From: Omnitrophica bacterium GWA2_41_15
GTDB lineage: Bacteria; Omnitrophota; Gorgyraeia; Gygaellales; UBA12090
Assembly (NCBI GenBank): GCA_919901925.1
Contig: CAKKQA010000199.1
Coordinates: 1 to 32,566 of the forward strand
Direction: 5' to 3'
DNA length: 32,566 bases
Shown piece by piece: positions 1 to 25,115 of this stretch (position 1 is the stretch's first letter; every line of letters starts with the position of its first letter). Under the pieces are notes generated by a model. The model worked only from the letters and a program-made list of their open reading frames with translations, had not been told where the DNA came from and did not search any database. A program made the translations under genes and the position numbers.

Positions 1-219
1 GCCTGCGGCTACCAATTATAACACAGCCGCATTGACACGGTTACTTCCAAGGGCTGAACTATTACTGTATTCCTGACTTATATGAAATATACTCTGCCTC
101 TTAGACTCTGTCAAGAAAGAAATACCAAGAGTTTCCCATTTTTTAACCCAGATTTTGCTCTTTCAGAAAACACTCCTGGCGTCATTGCGGGGAGCCCCCG
201 CTTACTGACCGGTTACTTT

Positions 220-936
220 TTATGGGGCGCAAATGGAAGGAAGGTTTCTCTCGATAAACCCGAGGAGCTTTTTCTGCGTTTCACTTCCAATATCCTTAAA
301 CTCTAACCCCATGCCGGGATAGATCTGCGGCTGAAGTTCTTTCTGCACATGCCAGGCCACCCTCGCATCCATTTCCAGCTCACCCGGCTTAGGCAAAAGC
401 GCCACTTTTAAATCCAATGCCTCGCCCAGAGGGTAAATCTTATCGGCGAAAATCAACATCCCCACGGCGCTTAAATTCAATATTTTTCCTCTGTGAAAAT
501 CCGCTTCCCTTTTTGACTTAAACTGGACATCTATATCAAGCGGCAAGCGCTTAAACCTTCTCCTAAGCTGTTTCTTCTGAATCTCCAAAATGTTTTTGTC
601 GTCTTTAAAACTTTTTATTGCCTGTTTTTCATCGTTATAAAACTCGAAAACCCTGTCCAGCGCCACCAGGCAGAATATCTTTTTAATATGTTCGGGGACG
701 CTCAAGAATTTGATAGTCCCTTTATGGTTAAGCATATTTTTATAAGCAATCGCTAAAACAGACAACCCTGCATAGTCGACTAGATTTATCCCGTCAAAAT
801 TACAGAGTATGTCACAATAGCCGTTTTCGATGCACCAGCCGACTTTCTCTACGAAATTAGCCGAATCAATATCTATATTCCCGGCCAAATCAAGGATAAC
901 TACCGAGCCTGTTTTTCTGAATGAGATTTCTAGCAT
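220..936 (-). CDS. STAS domain fused to PilZ domain, putative c-di-GMP-responsive regulator
   Basis: N-terminus resembles STAS/anti-sigma antagonist (VVILDLAGNIDIDSA...DYAGLSVLAIAY); C-terminus has PilZ signatures RRRFKR and NLSAVGM (RxxxR and N/DxSxxG). Confidence 0.8.
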   Translation of the reverse strand: MLEISFRKTGSVVILDLAGNIDIDSANFVEKVGWCIENGYCDILCNFDGINLVDYAGLSVLAIAYKNMLNHKGTIKFLSVPEHIKKIFCLVALDRVFEFYNDEKQAIKSFKDDKNILEIQKKQLRRRFKRLPLDIDVQFKSKREADFHRGKILNLSAVGMLIFADKIYPLGEALDLKVALLPKPGELEMDARVAWHVQKELQPQIYPGMGLEFKDIGSETQKKLLGFIERNLPSICAP

Positions 937-970
937 AATATTCTAACTCGTATCTGTCCAAATTACGCCT

Positions 971-1077
971 GTCATTGCGAGGAACCATCGTTAGGCATAT
1001 CAGTTACGAAGCAATCTCGCATTTAAAAACGAGATTGCTTCGTCGCCACGTCTGAAATAATAGCTCCTCGCAATGAC
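971..1077. repeat. MITE/REP-like palindromic repeat, copy 1
   Basis: gtcattgcgagg...cctcgcaatgac termini with inner inverted arms gaagcaatctcg/cgagattgcttc. Confidence 0.85.
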
Positions 1078-1098
1078 AGTTTCACTATCATCTGTGTG

Positions 1099-1158
1099 TT
1101 ATTTCTTCTTTTTCTTTGCCTTTTTCTTCTTTTTAGCTCCACATGACCCGCAACTCAT
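1099..1158 (-). CDS. 19-aa microprotein MSCGSCGAKKKKKAKKKKK
   Basis: ATG AGT TGC GGG TCA TGT GGA GCT AAA... TAA, preceded by AAGGAGGTGTTAT (strong SD, 6-nt spacing after GGAGG). Below the ORF track length cutoff. Confidence 0.6.
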   Translation of the reverse strand: MSCGSCGAKKKKKAKKKKK

Positions 1159-1184
1159 ATAACACCTCCTTCTTTGTATTACTG

Positions 1185-1814
1185 TTAACCTTTTTTGTTA
1201 ACCAGCCTCACATAATCGATATATATCGACCCTTTGCCCACCGGCCTGGGTTCAAACTGAAATATATTTATCGGCATATTTAACTCGCCGTTTTTATCAG
1301 ACTTCTCCGGCTGCCAATCGCCTCGAGGGAAAAAATCGCTAAAAGGCACCAAAAATTCTTTCCATCCGTTAAAATCATCGGTAAACATATACCGCCAATA
1401 TTCGAAACCGCTATCAACTAAATCTAACGCGACAGGCGTATTTGTATTTGTGCCGTAAACCCAAAAAGAAACGGCGTTGAACTTTCCAAAATCAATATCT
1501 TTAGGCGCCACTAACCAGGCTTCCGCGCCCTTTACATCTAATCCGTAACCACGGGATACCCATATATATCCGCCGCTTTGCGCGTCAAAATTAATCTTTA
1601 ACGACTGCTCTCCGTGGTATTTAATATCTTTAGCCGCCTCGACAGAAACGCTTGAAGGGCTTCCGGCGCCGCAATCAACGGTACCGTCAGGGCCGCTGGA
1701 TATCGGGCCTTCGAAATCGTCTATTAAAAGCTCATCACTGGACTGGGCAAAGCCATAACAGGCAACTGCTAAAACAAAGAACAATGAAATTAATAACGCG
1801 CGTGCTAATCTCAT
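1185..1814 (-). CDS. secreted carbohydrate-binding/CIA30-like domain protein
   Basis: Signal peptide MRLARALLISLFFVLAVACYGFAQS; DDFEG...FNAVSFWVYG...WKEFLVPFSDF...IYIDYVRLV resembles CBM11/CIA30-like beta-sandwich. Start moved from 1877 to the Met at 1814. Confidence 0.65.
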   Translation of the reverse strand: MRLARALLISLFFVLAVACYGFAQSSDELLIDDFEGPISSGPDGTVDCGAGSPSSVSVEAAKDIKYHGEQSLKINFDAQSGGYIWVSRGYGLDVKGAEAWLVAPKDIDFGKFNAVSFWVYGTNTNTPVALDLVDSGFEYWRYMFTDDFNGWKEFLVPFSDFFPRGDWQPEKSDKNGELNMPINIFQFEPRPVGKGSIYIDYVRLVNKKG

Positions 1815-1945
1815 CCAAGTTCTCCTTTCTGCTACGCCATTCAAATTACAGACAACGGTATGGCTTCGCAGGAACAAGCTCTATTGTATAGTGCTGCGAA
1901 GCTCTACCACAATTGAAATATTGAAGAGCGCAGCAGACCTTTTAA

Positions 1946-2296
1946 TTAATGTTTCTTTTCCGTGTTTTTGCGCATCTGTTTAAATTTATCCTTTTGCGCT
2001 GGCTCAAGAATTTGTTCAATCTCATCGTCGGTTTTAACCTTTAAGTTCCTTACCTTTTCCTTGGCGTCCTCAAATATCTTGACGGTTTCGCTTTTGGAGC
2101 TGGTTAGAATATTTCTAACCCTTACCTTTTGAGATTCAGTCAGGTTAAGTTTTTTACCAAGGCTTTCTACCCTACGTTCGATTTTTTCTCCCTGGGTGTC
2201 TTTGCCTGGTTTTTTACCTTCTGTTTTCTGCGCATACGCGAAAGTGCAGAGCACAAAAGCAAACGCTGCCGTAAAAATAACTATACGTTTTATCAT
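1946..2296 (-). CDS. secreted small helical protein, Spy/CpxP-like
   Basis: Signal peptide followed by charged helical region with LNLTESQKVRVRNIL and EPAQKDKFKQM, like Spy/LTXXQ proteins. Confidence 0.5.
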   Translation of the reverse strand: MIKRIVIFTAAFAFVLCTFAYAQKTEGKKPGKDTQGEKIERRVESLGKKLNLTESQKVRVRNILTSSKSETVKIFEDAKEKVRNLKVKTDDEIEQILEPAQKDKFKQMRKNTEKKH

Positions 2297-2307
2297 AGCC
2301 CGCCCCC

Positions 2308-3381
2308 TTAATGTTTACGTGTTAACATCCTGGCTTTATTTACAATCTCCTCAACGATAAGAACCCCTCCGCCTGCGCGGCCTAAAAACTCGACATCCGC
2401 TCGTCCATTAAGGGCCAACCGGACATCTTCAACCATCTGGCCGCAAGACATCTCAAGGCATAAGAATTTAAGGCGTTTTTTCGTATGGGCAAGGTTTTTA
2501 AAAACGCCGTTGGGAAAAGGCCACAAGCTGACCGGGCGGATAAGCCCGGCTTTAACTCCTTTTTCCCTTAAATCCAACATCGCCTGTTTTGCCAGCCTTG
2601 CCATTGTGCCGTAAGCAACTAAAATAATATCCGCTTTATCTAAATGAAACTTTTCGTAACGTTGCTCTTTTTTATTTATCGTTTTATATTTTTCCTGTAA
2701 TTTTAAATTAAACTTTTCTAACTCGCCTAATTTAAGATAAAATGACTTCGCCACATTTGGTTTTCTTCCTTCACATCCCGTCAACGCCCACGGCTTTGCA
2801 AAATCCTTAACCCTTAACCCTTTACCCTTAACCCTTAACGGTTCCATCATCTGCCCGAGCATGCCATCGCTTAATATAATCACAGGGCATTTGTATTTAT
2901 CAGCCAGGTCAAACGCCAAAGCGGTTAAGCCATAGGCTTCCTGTACTGTCGACGGGGCCAGCACAATACAATGGTAATCGCCGTGGCCGCCGCCTTTAGT
3001 TGCCTGAAAATAATCTGATTGCGCCGGCCAGATATTGCCTAACCCCGGGCCTGCGCGCATAATATTCGCGATAACCGCGGGCAATTCAGCGCCGGCGATA
3101 TAAGAAATCCCTTCTTGCATTAAACTTATTCCGGGGCTGGAAGAACTGGTCATTGCCCGCGTGCCCGTGGCCGAGGCGCCAAAAACCATATTTATCGCGG
3201 CTAGCTCCGATTCCGACTGAATAAAAACTCCGCCTGCCTCTTTCATATTCCGAGCCATATAAGCAATCAATTCATTTTGAGGGGTAATCGGATAGCCCGC
3301 GTAAAATCTGCATCCGGCATCAAGAGCCCCTTTCGCGATCGCCTCATTACCCGACAACAATATTTTATCTTTAAGTGCCAT
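2308..3381 (-). CDS. vorB: 2-oxoacid:ferredoxin oxidoreductase alpha subunit (VorB/KorA type)
   Basis: LLSGNEAIAKGALDAGCRFYAGYPITPQNE..., SSSPGISLMQEGISY, full length; carries a heptad-repeat-derived GLRVKGKGLRVKD segment. Confidence 0.85.
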   Translation of the reverse strand: MALKDKILLSGNEAIAKGALDAGCRFYAGYPITPQNELIAYMARNMKEAGGVFIQSESELAAINMVFGASATGTRAMTSSSSPGISLMQEGISYIAGAELPAVIANIMRAGPGLGNIWPAQSDYFQATKGGGHGDYHCIVLAPSTVQEAYGLTALAFDLADKYKCPVIILSDGMLGQMMEPLRVKGKGLRVKDFAKPWALTGCEGRKPNVAKSFYLKLGELEKFNLKLQEKYKTINKKEQRYEKFHLDKADIILVAYGTMARLAKQAMLDLREKGVKAGLIRPVSLWPFPNGVFKNLAHTKKRLKFLCLEMSCGQMVEDVRLALNGRADVEFLGRAGGGVLIVEEIVNKARMLTRKH

Positions 3382-3402
3382 ATTCGTTAAACTCTTTATA
3401 AT

Positions 3403-3603
3403 TTACTTGTCTACTTCAATTGCCGCGTCGGGGCAAATAAGGGCACACGACGCGCAACCGCTGCAGCCGCTATCGACGAAAACAACCGGTTTTATCCCGC
3501 GCTTATTCAGCTTTATATCGTGCTTTATCAAGCCCTTCGGGCAAACGCTGATACAAAGCAGGCATCCTTTACATTTTTCGCGATTGATTTTAATCCGTGC
3601 CAT
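3403..3603 (-). CDS. 4Fe-4S ferredoxin subunit of 2-oxoacid oxidoreductase
   Basis: Two clusters CKGCLLCISVCP and CSGCASCALICP; directly upstream of vorB. Confidence 0.85.
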   Translation of the reverse strand: MARIKINREKCKGCLLCISVCPKGLIKHDIKLNKRGIKPVVFVDSGCSGCASCALICPDAAIEVDK

Positions 3604-3630
3604 CTTTATAAATTTAAAAGGTAATTTGAC

Positions 3631-5457
3631 TTAACTTCTTATATGCTTGAGTATAGCTTCCGCAATCCCCTTCGCGTCAAGCCCGTATTTCTCAAGCAAT
3701 AAATCCCGCTTGCCATGGACGACAAATTCACAAGGCAGGCCCAAACGCAACAGTGGCCGGTTTAATAATTCTAACACAGCTGAACCAAAACCTCCATCTA
3801 AAATTCCTTCCTCAACCGTAATTATATATTTGAATTTCGCGGATAGTCCTTTAAACAGCTCTTTATCAAGCGGCTTAACAAAACGGCTGTTTATAACACA
3901 GGCGTCAATGCCTTCGCTTTGTAAAATCCGCGCCGCTTCTAAACTTGGGCCAACCATTGAACCGATAGCAATAATCGCGGCATCCTTACCGTCTTTTAAA
4001 ATCTCTGCCTTACCCATTTGAATGCCGGGCACCGGATGCTGAATGCTAATCGCCGTGGCTTTCGGATACCTGATCGCGCAGGGAGCCCTTACATTAACCG
4101 CGAATTCCAGCATACCCTCAAGCTCTTTTACCGAAGACGGCGCCATGACGGTAAAATTAGGAATATGGCGCAGATACGCCAAATCAAAAATCCCCTGATG
4201 AGTAACTCCGTCTTCGCCGCTTATGCCGGCGCGGTCAAGGCAAAAGACAATCGGAAGATTCGAAAGAGCCGCTTCTTCGATTAATTGGTCATAGGCGCGT
4301 TGTAAAAATGTGGAATATACTGCCACAACCGGTAACAGGCCTTTTTTGGCTAAGCCCGCGGCAAAACATACGGTATGCGCTTCCGCGATACCCGTATCAA
4401 AGAATCTCTCCGGGTATGCCGCCTGGAACTTATCCAGGCCTGTCCCGTCGGGCATCGCCGCGGTTATGGCCGTGATTTTTTTATTATCCGCTGCTAATTC
4501 TATCATCTTACTGCCGAAAATATCGGTATAAGTTATCTTGGCCTCTGACAAGCTCCTGCCTGTGGCAATATCAAATTGCCCGACGCTGTGAAACCTGACC
4601 GGCTCTCTTTCCGCGGGCAGATACCCTTTTCCTTTCTTAGTAAGCACATGCAAAAGTATCGGCCCTTTTAAAGAAAGTATGTTTTTAAGCGTTGGAATCA
4701 AGCGTTCAAGGTCGTGGCCGTCAAGCGGGCCAAAATAACGAAAGCCCAGCTCCTCAAAAAGCATCCCCGGGACAAAAAAGCCTTTTATTTCTTTTTCAAA
4801 CTTTGCGGCTAATTTTAGAATCACTTTTCCTTTCGGCATTCTGCCGCGGATAAATTTTTCCAACGAGTCCATAAAACGATTGTACACCGGTTGAGAAATA
4901 ATCTTATTTAAATAAACGCTGATCGCTCCGACTGCCGGAGAAATACTTAATTCATTAGTATTTAAGACTACCAAGATATCTTTTTTAAGGTGGCCGGCGT
5001 TATTTAAGCCTTCAAAACAAAGCCCTCCGGACAAAGAACCATCGCCGATGACCGCGACTGCTTTTTGATTGTTGACAACGCTCATCCCCAGCGCCAGAGA
5101 TACCGCGTCCGAGCTATGGCCGGCAGTGAACGGGTCGTATAGCGATTCGCCCGCGGTCGGAAAACCGCTTAGGCCGCCGAATTGCCGCAGTGTATCAAAT
5201 TTATCATTCCTGCCGGATAATATTTTATGCGCGTATGCTTGGTGGCCGACGTCAAACAACACGGAATCTTTAGGAAGGTCGAGAGAATAATGCAGGGCAC
5301 AGATTAACTCTACGGCACCTAAGCTGGAAGCCAGGTGGCCGCCGTTTTTAGAGACAACTTCGATTATACGGCCGCGCAATTCAGCGCAAAGCGCGTTTAA
5401 TTGCGGAATGCTAAGTTTTTTTAAATCCTGCGGCGTGTTTATAGATTCTAATAACAT
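3631..5457 (-). CDS. dxs: 1-deoxy-D-xylulose-5-phosphate synthase
   Basis: GHQAYAHKILSGR, IGDGSLSGGLCFEGLNN, GPLDGHD, DRAGISGEDGVTHQG. Start placed at ATG 5457 (MLLESINTPQDLKKL) because the track start at 5499 lies in an inverted repeat. Confidence 0.9.
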   Translation of the reverse strand: MLLESINTPQDLKKLSIPQLNALCAELRGRIIEVVSKNGGHLASSLGAVELICALHYSLDLPKDSVLFDVGHQAYAHKILSGRNDKFDTLRQFGGLSGFPTAGESLYDPFTAGHSSDAVSLALGMSVVNNQKAVAVIGDGSLSGGLCFEGLNNAGHLKKDILVVLNTNELSISPAVGAISVYLNKIISQPVYNRFMDSLEKFIRGRMPKGKVILKLAAKFEKEIKGFFVPGMLFEELGFRYFGPLDGHDLERLIPTLKNILSLKGPILLHVLTKKGKGYLPAEREPVRFHSVGQFDIATGRSLSEAKITYTDIFGSKMIELAADNKKITAITAAMPDGTGLDKFQAAYPERFFDTGIAEAHTVCFAAGLAKKGLLPVVAVYSTFLQRAYDQLIEEAALSNLPIVFCLDRAGISGEDGVTHQGIFDLAYLRHIPNFTVMAPSSVKELEGMLEFAVNVRAPCAIRYPKATAISIQHPVPGIQMGKAEILKDGKDAAIIAIGSMVGPSLEAARILQSEGIDACVINSRFVKPLDKELFKGLSAKFKYIITVEEGILDGGFGSAVLELLNRPLLRLGLPCEFVVHGKRDLLLEKYGLDAKGIAEAILKHIRS

Positions 5458-10584: not shown

Positions 10585-10982
10585 TGCTGCTTTATATTCT
10601 GTTTTTTCCTGTAATCTTCGATTGCCGCTTTGAGGGCCTCTTCCGCCAGCACCGAACAATGCATCTTTATCGCCGGCAACCCTCCTAATGCTTCGGCAAC
10701 CGCTTTATTTGAAACCTTCAGGGCGTCATCTGTGCTTTTGCCCTTAATCATCTCGGTAACCATCGAGCTGGTTGCAATGGCAGCGCCACAACCAAAAGTC
10801 TTAAACCTAGTATTCACTATTATACCATTCTCTACTTTAATATACAATCTAAGGACGTCGCCACAGACAGGATTTCCGACATTTCCTATGCCATTGGCGT
10901 CTGAAAGCTCTCCGCAATTCCTTGGATGAAGAAAATGGTCCATTACTTTCTCTGAATATACACTACCGCTATCTTGTGCCAT
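10581..10982 (-). CDS. iron-sulfur cluster assembly scaffold, NifU/IscU-like
   Basis: [69 protein letters not shown] (three conserved Cys). Confidence 0.92.
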
Positions 10983-12012
10983 ACGCCATCCTTAAATTAC
11001 CATATTTTCGATTTCTATATTTAATGTTTTTCCTAACTCTTATCAAGCCATCTTTCATTCTTTGATGCTTAAGGAATGGCGAAAGCCAATCCAAAAGCTT
11101 CAACAAATCTCGCTTTTTATATACAGCCAATCGCCAGAAATCTTGATTTGTTTTGTATGCTTTATTAAGATGCAATTGATATTTTGATAAGTTCACCTTA
11201 CTGCCCTTTGGCCTGTCTAATGTCAGCTTTGCATTTATCCCTTTGTCACTCAATTTGCTCTGGATTTGAGATAATATATTCCTGTCATAAGTACCTACCC
11301 TCAAATAAGCGCAATTGTTACTGTGAATACCCAAGTCCCCTTCCGCATCTAAATAACCCGCAAAAAAAGAAAAGAAACACCGATTGTTTCGTAATATCCA
11401 AGGCCTAATCATGTCTTTCTTCTCTAACAAAAAGCTAAAAGAATCGTTAAGGGCACACTGAATTCTAATAACCTTTGCTGCATCTCTTTTGGTTATCCGA
11501 ACATAGCCATATTTTTTAAATAAATTCTTAATTAAAACTATTTGATCCAGAATGGCGGAACCACACTCTACTGAAATAATTTTTCCGTTTTTCTCATACT
11601 TTTTAACGAATAAATCGCCTAGCCGGAAACCTACAAGATATGCTTTTTCGATCAAATCTCCTCTGAAATTTTGCTTGGGATATTTGATATGCGCTTCTGA
11701 AATATCTCTAATCTTGATTTGATATTCTTTTAACCTATTTAGTATAGTGCTGTTACTGCATGAATATTCCCGGGCTATCTGAAAACTTGTTTTCTTTTCC
11801 TTTGTATATAAAAATCTTAATCTATCTTTAGGGATGTCCAATTTAACCGACATTGAAGGACGTACTTTAATCTTGTGCTGGTGGAGTTTTCTCTGTATGG
11901 TGGTTGCGCCACAATTATAAACTTTAGCTAAACGACGAACTGAAAAATTATGATTTTCGTATAACTCGCTCATCTGATTCTCATCTATATTAACTTGTCC
12001 TTTACTCATCAA
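10969..12012 (-). CDS. free-standing LAGLIDADG homing endonuclease with two N-terminal HTH repeats
   Basis: Two HTH-like units ([41 protein letters not shown]) then LAGLIDADG-like [12 protein letters not shown] and [14 protein letters not shown]. Confidence 0.82.
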
Positions 12013-17577: not shown

Positions 17578-17683
17578 GTCATTGCGAGGAACCCTCGCTT
17601 GACATATCCGTGACGAAGCAATCTCGCACTTAAAAACGCGATTGCTTCGTCGCCTCGTGATAGCGAAAGCTCCTCGCAATGAC
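17578..17683. repeat. MITE/REP-like palindromic repeat, copy 3
   Basis: gtcattgcgaggaaccctcgcttgacatatccgtgacgaagcaatctcg...cgattgcttcgtcg...gctcctcgcaatgac. Confidence 0.88.
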
Positions 17684-24150: not shown

Positions 24151-24807
24151 TTAATTAAGAACCGTCTTGCTTTTACTCCAGCCTTGATACGAATCAAAAC
24201 ATGCTTGAGCCAATTTTATTTTTCTGTCTAAACCGAAGCAGCCCTTATAATAACATTGTCCGGCAATCTGCCTTGCTGCCATCTTTCCGTATTTCAATAC
24301 CCATAAGCTACTATGCTTATGAATTTTGCCCTCAATTCTCAATAACCTCTCTATTTTACTCTCCAGCCACTTAATAAATTCTACCGACCCTGAAAAAATT
24401 CTGACACTCCACTGTTCTTTCCCATTAGTTGGATGTAGCCAGCGCTGAATACAGCCATCCCCATCAATCAAACCTCGCAAAAAATCATTAAAAAATCCTT
24501 CGGGCACCTTCAAAGAACCTAAAATTAAAGATTTATTCTGCATAAGGCCTATTGATAATAAAAATTCGTAGAAATTCTTATTCGAAATTTGAATACGATA
24601 AGCCTGCTTATTGGTATTTCTATTTTTAACACAAACCCCGGCAGCGAGACCCATGTTTTCTTTTATCTTTAATAGGTACGCGGAATCCTTTGAAGTAATA
24701 TCTACGTGCCTTCCGTCCTTACACAAACACCCATCACTCGTAATAAGGCCCACTAAATACCAAAAATTCGCACCTTTTATCTTTAAATCTTTTCTTTTTT
24801 GTGGCAT
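24151..24807 (-). CDS. LAGLIDADG homing endonuclease
   Basis: Two motifs WYLVGLITSDGCL and FLRGLIDGDGCI about 100 aa apart. Confidence 0.85.
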   Translation of the reverse strand: MPQKRKDLKIKGANFWYLVGLITSDGCLCKDGRHVDITSKDSAYLLKIKENMGLAAGVCVKNRNTNKQAYRIQISNKNFYEFLLSIGLMQNKSLILGSLKVPEGFFNDFLRGLIDGDGCIQRWLHPTNGKEQWSVRIFSGSVEFIKWLESKIERLLRIEGKIHKHSSLWVLKYGKMAARQIAGQCYYKGCFGLDRKIKLAQACFDSYQGWSKSKTVLN

Positions 24808-25009: not shown

Positions 25010-25115
25010 GTCATTGCGAGGAACCCTTGCTTGGCATATAAGTGACGAAGCAATCACGTTTTTTAAAACGAGATTGCTTCGTCACCACATGTCAACGACA
25101 GCTCCTCGCAATGAC
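25010..25115. repeat. MITE/REP-like palindromic repeat, copy 4
   Basis: gtcattgcgaggaaccc...gacgaagcaatcacg...cgagattgcttcgtc...gctcctcgcaatgac. Confidence 0.88.

Follow-up and report, generated by a model that had tools for sequence, protein, structure and literature searches.

A family of lysine-tailed CGxC microproteins in Omnitrophota with a probable link to oxygen defence

A 19-residue open reading frame (ORF) in a 32,566-nucleotide stretch of Omnitrophota DNA (the window) is, judging from sequence comparison, a genuine microprotein gene and a member of a conserved family of this uncultured phylum. The family combines a CGxC head with a lysine tail and, as far as gene order indicates, is linked to the genes for superoxide reductase (SOR), flavodiiron protein (FDP), hybrid cluster protein (Hcp) and rubrerythrin in most genomes outside, and not within, the GTDB family of the window. 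This association with oxygen defence was missed in the earlier reading of the sequence alone and is the main clue to function, and we infer that the microprotein is probably part of an oxygen/ROS-stress response. In the reading that we favour, with confidence a little better than even, the microprotein serves the response to oxygen or ROS; its CGxC head would bind metal or undergo thiol redox chemistry, and its cationic tail would act as an anchor. This reading draws on the extent and specificity of the family, selection at the protein level, synteny, the O2/ROS gene neighbourhood together with a reverse test of it, and a fused form of the peptide.

The microprotein gene and its surroundings are listed in Table 1. 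The initial annotation had described a 19-residue microprotein with a consensus ribosome-binding site (RBS), situated between a secreted protein gene and a palindromic repeat, and this description holds on the minus strand. The end of the GGAGG core lies 6 nt, and that of the full Shine-Dalgarno sequence 4 nt, from the ATG, which itself follows the stop codon of the CBM_11-domain gene by 26 nt; the CBM11, microprotein and STAS–PilZ genes all share the minus strand. A plus-strand reading of 1099-1158 was rejected, as the frame is interrupted and unrelated and holds no such ORF. The palindromic element is a dispersed sequence that lies outside the microprotein gene and is unrelated to it.

Table 1. 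Location of the microprotein gene and neighbouring features in the window
Feature	Position	Strand	Details	Evidence
Microprotein gene, product MSCGSCGAKKKKKAKKKKK (19 aa)	1099..1158	minus (1158→1099)	ATG 1158-1156, stop TAA 1101-1099	Translation and homologues with the same pattern
Shine-Dalgarno sequence AAGGAGGTG	1163..1171	minus (1171-1163)		Sequence; GGAGG in 36/39 family members
Upstream gene, signal-peptide protein with CBM_11-like domain	1185..1814	minus		Pfam CBM_11 E=2.5e-15; syntenic in GTDB family
Downstream gene, STAS + PilZ domain protein	220..936	minus		Pfam PilZ 1.9e-14, STAS 7.9e-11; syntenic in GTDB family
Dispersed palindromic (MITE-like) element, between microprotein and STAS–PilZ genes	969..1079		Other copies 17578-17683, 25010-25115	Inverted repeat arms 969-988/1060-1079

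Some further features of the window were recorded in passing. The palindromic element is about 105-111 bp long, ends in CTGTCATTGCGAGGA(A/G)C and has an inner ACGAAGCAATCTCG palindrome, and three two-ended copies are present in the 32.5 kb; a similar sequence comes after the microprotein at one other locus (L149). Two ORFs, 10969-12012 (beside a NifU-like gene) and 24151-24807, resemble homing-endonuclease-like proteins.

The extent of the family was probed using pattern searches with matched controls. The pattern M-x-CG-x-CG-x-KKK was matched in 4 of 58 relatives (the window's own genome counted), while the control gave no match. A lysine-free pattern (RBS followed by M-x-CG-x-CG) was matched in 35 of 384 Omnitrophota genomes as compared with 2 for the reversed pattern, and a wider pattern in 33 of the 384 as compared with 1. 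When translated, the lysine-free matches are mostly ORFs of 13–24 aa that carry a lysine tail, even though lysine was not in the query; the exceptions are about eight recombinase-type zinc-ribbon copies, one chance ORF and two longer Cys proteins. A strict exact scan of an 84,980-species GTDB collection returned 14 matches, 13 of them in Omnitrophota and one in Nitrospirae, and a survey of 148 Nitrospirota genomes yielded this one as the single real case, with a rubrerythrin neighbour, and one chance match. On the basis of these distributions the family appears to be essentially confined to Omnitrophota. Within 400 kb of Omnitrophota control DNA, no RBS-preceded, Lys-rich short ORF of the family kind was found, only two unrelated CxxC-type ORFs. 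Furthermore, when 30 SOR and 30 flavodiiron loci that had been fetched without any pattern were scanned with a relaxed CxxC query, again mainly CGxC–Lys members were recovered.

The family as collected comprises 39 short genes encoding 36 distinct peptides of 13–26 aa, with the consensus M-[S/G]-C-G-x-C-(G/A/K) followed by the Lys tail; the search patterns themselves dictated C3, G4 and C6 of this consensus, and the stricter patterns also G7. At residue 2, which was left free in both phylum-wide patterns, 21 of the 39 genes encode Ser and the other 18 Gly. Nearly all short members contain two cysteines and a few contain three, and His is almost absent. The CxxC, the Lys tail and the RBS, whose loss in close relatives would have counted against the gene, are conserved in relatives. 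Five short members had no match in Pfam, two had no relevant match in NCBIfam, and short members gave no meaningful match in PHROGs; the open-access literature searched yielded no description of a poly-Lys family of 13–26 aa with a single knuckle in oxygen-defence operons. There is consequently a strong case for a new family, although tiny stress-linked proteins as such are already known. Common gene finders apply a minimum ORF length near 30 codons, so that the whole family escapes them, even though its sequence, its RBS and its gene order are conserved across many families of the phylum.

Codon usage shows that selection acts on the protein. Among the purine-only codons in frame, the 39 genes contain 208 AAG, 132 AAA, 59 GGA/GGG and 17 AGA/AGG codons and not a single GAA or GAG, whereas AGA or GAA abounds when the genes are read in either of the other two frames. 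A purine tract conserved as such would ignore the frame, and this frame-specific choice therefore points to selection at the protein level. Similarly, Asp, Glu, Phe, Trp and Tyr are absent from all 39 genes, and charge is carried by Lys and Arg only. Of the Lys codons, 61% are AAG, as compared with 41% in 348 background ORFs. The longest A-run has a mean length of 5.4 (maximum 8); shuffling of the same Lys codons raises this mean to 6.8±0.27, and none of 2000 shuffles gave runs as short. Homopolymeric A causes ribosomes of E. coli to slide, and output falls with iterated AAA codons (PMC4363877); the avoidance of A-runs thus suggests a codon order that favours faithful translation. A chance or low-complexity ORF was rejected as an explanation by the codon, RBS, synteny and distribution tests.

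In most loci the ORF is followed by a strong hairpin. Stems of 7 bp or more come after the stop codon in 30 of the 39 loci, as compared with 62 among 348 other genes, and the first 70 nt beyond the stop fold more stably (−22.4 versus −11.4 kcal/mol, p=4e-16). The hairpin looks like an operon-end terminator or an RNA-stabilising hairpin; in the window the stem test did not detect it, and the dispersed palindromic element occupies the site. A short ORF with a strong RBS and a hairpin superficially resembles an attenuator, and the initial annotation had raised the idea of a regulatory uORF with lysine-dependent stalling, in which stalling or sliding of ribosomes at the Lys tail or the Cys codons would control the downstream gene through the hairpin. 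However, a leader-peptide attenuator needs a 5' leader, a constant regulated gene, and alternative pairing between the ORF RNA and the terminator. In 36 of 39 loci the microprotein gene comes after a gene of the same strand, at a distance of no more than 70 nt in 22 of these, so the microprotein is usually a distal cistron and not a 5' leader; the gene that follows is variable; and pairing between the ORF and the downstream sequence is no stronger than with permuted partners (14.5 versus 13.8 +/- 0.8 pairs). Enrichment of AAG and avoidance of A-runs favour smooth translation (PMC4363877), which is the opposite of a stall cassette, and a search of positions 1-4000 of the window against Rfam gave no match. 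The leader-peptide explanation is thus disfavoured, and we regard it as distinctly improbable. That a non-coding RNA or 3'UTR element is the functional entity and the ORF incidental is suggested by the hairpin, but is at odds with the frame-specific codon constraint, the conservation of the RBS and the same negative Rfam result, making this explanation highly improbable.

Gene order in the window's own GTDB family provides a further line of evidence for the gene. The microprotein gene adjoins the CBM11 gene, the STAS–PilZ gene or both in six genomes (G000 and G002, G003, G004, G005, G006), and a seventh copy, MGCGTCGPKKPKKPKK in G001, was reached by way of the STAS–PilZ gene, that is by synteny and not by pattern. 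The arrangement is therefore present in 7 of 7 genomes with the locus, which belong to five genera, and the peptides have diverged across the family, with MGCGTCAPKKKKSTAKPKAKAKAKKR at the far end. No STAS–PilZ orthologue was found in the assemblies of the two remaining genomes of the family, which are 64–65% complete. In this family the neighbours are CBM11 and STAS–PilZ genes, not redox genes, and the SOR gene of the window's genome is located on another contig (C116). That redox neighbours are absent here is what weakens the oxygen-response reading most.

In other families the neighbourhood is of a different kind. A core O2/ROS gene lies within 3 kb of the microprotein gene at 24 of 41 loci, as compared with 0 of 580 background positions, which were taken from 400 kb in 20 stretches of six of the same genomes and overlap, so that the chance rate is bounded only to a few percent. 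A tblastn search of the 400 kb of background DNA with the same references likewise found nothing. Based on Pfam assignments, the genes within 3 kb encode flavodiiron protein (16 of the 41 loci), SOR (9), Hcp (8), rubrerythrin (7), Tpx-like peroxiredoxin (7), thioredoxin reductase (7), glutaredoxin-like protein (4) and MsrB (2), and Rrf2 regulators (12), FNR-type reductases (12) and 2-oxoacid:ferredoxin oxidoreductase (9) are also nearby. For SOR, the nine loci observed compare with about 0.4% of positions expected from roughly one copy per genome (6 kb of ~1.6 Mb). The listed neighbours are co-directional with the microprotein gene, except for the single Nitrospirota one, a divergent rubrerythrin gene. 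Among the gene orders are Hcp–microprotein–SOR and FDP–microprotein–PNPOx-like; at two loci the gene after the microprotein encodes rubredoxin. In the reverse test, a Lys-tailed member was recovered in 7 of 30 flavodiiron and 6 of 30 SOR loci versus none in the 400 kb of background; a search with the Prismane family returned mostly full-length Prismane/CODH-family loci and not the short Hcp of the clusters. No listed redox gene is found within 3 kb at 14-17 of the 41 loci. Many Omnitrophota with SOR or FDP have no recognisable copy of the microprotein, which is therefore not an obligatory partner of these enzymes.

Other small proteins are encoded in these regions. A different small Cys-rich protein of 36 aa, MCKTCGCSPCKCGKKIVKGVCEGCGKKSDECSCLKK, with an RBS and no Pfam match, lies near SOR at two loci of genus g19 (L080:2631 and L090:768, in G026 and G041) and is possibly a metallothionein-like partner of the same stress cluster. 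Also near SOR, genome G330 encodes MCSTCGCRNKPKPK (L083:3036; 14 aa, with an RBS), which may be a second divergent microprotein, in addition to a normal member (L064). A conserved small zinc-ribbon ORF (CPGQD...CxxCGY...PSCVDWCKAA) is found in the same Hcp/SOR cluster at L066, L069, L041, L058 and L063 and is fused to an HD domain in some genomes.

The microprotein also appears as part of a longer protein. Proteins of 44–48 aa (L074/L235, L075/L238, L148/L237 and L236) begin like the microprotein and continue with Y-x-C-x-x-C-G…CCGxxMKKK, which resembles the pattern of desulforedoxin. Their N-terminus reads CGxC-KKK, and the CxxC is not strictly kept, as L239 has CGSH. One of these proteins (L074) adjoins SOR, ferredoxin and a ferritin-like protein; within the group L235-L239 (also L074, L075 and L148), three come after response-regulator-like genes. 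The fusion form aligns with Desulfoferrod_N at E=0.0033, below the Pfam cut-off. A model of the fused 46-mer is of medium confidence (pLDDT 76), and its highest-probability Foldseek match is desulforedoxin (1dxg, 0.82), with an E-value that is not significant; a PDB sequence search with the fused form gave only weak zinc-ribbon look-alikes. The fusion hints at a shared role but does not prove one.

Taken at the level of the peptide, the reading of an oxygen/ROS-response microprotein suggests the following mechanism. Because residue 2 is Ser or Gly, which permits removal of Met, the mature peptide would begin with a (S/G)CGxC head. The two thiols of the head may bind Fe(II) or Zn(II), in the simplest case as a Cys4 site formed between two peptides that each contribute half a rubredoxin knuckle; a two-Cys peptide reaches a Cys4 site only by dimerising. 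Alternatively, the head could cycle between dithiol and disulfide, like the CGxC site of thioredoxin/PDI-type proteins. The Lys tail would anchor the head electrostatically to an acidic partner, either nucleic acid or the ribosome or an acidic redox protein such as rubredoxin. We favour the metal-binding knuckle over pure thiol chemistry, given that C-G-x-C-G has the form of a rubredoxin/zinc knuckle, that a desulforedoxin-like fusion is present, and that sites this small are possible, as designed peptides demonstrate. A metal/thiol peptide is plausible, not proven, and the metal- or nucleic-acid-binding peptide of the initial annotation is likewise a plausible description. A bolder version, to which we assign a low probability, is a natural minimal redox metallopeptide in which two CGxC-polyLys peptides of 13-26 residues hold one common Fe/Zn Cys4 site, dock via the Lys tail, and would be, for the SOR/flavodiiron system, the smallest electron carrier or metal buffer that is genetically encoded.

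Two other functions were weighed against the favoured one. CGxC is the form of thioredoxin and PDI active sites, and a thiol-only, mini-thioredoxin-like peptide that is reduced by thioredoxin reductase and passes electrons to peroxiredoxins or to disulfide repair would fit the thioredoxin reductase, Tpx-like peroxiredoxin and MsrB genes counted above. Such a peptide would, however, have no Trx fold to tune its thiols; the CGxCG of most members is equally rubredoxin- or zinc-knuckle-like, and flavodiiron protein, SOR and Hcp genes are linked to the microprotein no less strongly, so we consider a purely thiol-based role unlikely. In the other proposal the Lys tail is the active part, being protamine-like or ribosome-binding, and the CGxC head serves as a redox- or metal-dependent switch by which the protective or regulatory peptide is released or dimerises. 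The exclusively basic charge and the linkage to stress genes are consistent with this role, whereas the tail is variable in composition (Lys with Ala, Pro, Ser, Thr or Gly) and has no recognisable nucleic-acid-binding fold; this proposal, too, seems rather doubtful to us. Under the favoured reading, the linkage to oxygen defence gives the microprotein a testable role in the oxygen survival of strict anaerobes, and so small a peptide lends itself to probing the lower size limit for a metal or redox protein.

The closest known systems are the rubredoxins and desulforedoxins, the Fe(Cys)4 electron carriers of SOR–FDP–rubrerythrin systems, which have the C-x-x-C-G knuckle and the gene neighbourhoods in common with the microprotein. 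In contrast to the single CxxC of the strongly basic microprotein, these proteins possess two CxxC motifs (four Cys) in 36-55 aa, and their models match none of the short members searched (five in Pfam, two in NCBIfam), the fused form alone giving a sub-threshold hit. The real rubredoxins encoded beside it in two loci indicate that the microprotein is not simply a replacement. The bacterial metallothioneins are also small, Cys-containing proteins of a metal or oxidative-stress context, but use many Cys to build metal clusters where the microprotein has two or rarely three, and show no Pfam or NCBIfam similarity to it. That a tetrahedral metal site can form in very short peptides with Cys is demonstrated by the designed miniature rubredoxin METPsc1, which has an FeCys4 centre in 28 residues (PMC10130062), and by METP3, a designed homodimer of a short peptide (PMC8434281); these artificial peptides contain designed folding elements where the microprotein has only a Lys tail. 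The haloarchaeal one-domain zinc-finger micro-proteins are tiny Cys-knuckle proteins whose deletion produces stress or lifestyle phenotypes (PMC6562870), but they are folded zinc fingers of under 70 aa with four ligands, as opposed to two Cys and a poly-Lys tail in another lineage. Finally, MtrI of Methanosarcina, likewise a small protein that earlier annotation of an anaerobe had overlooked, acts upon exposure to oxygen and binds the Mtr complex (PMC12774963); it differs from the microprotein in size class, sequence and lineage.
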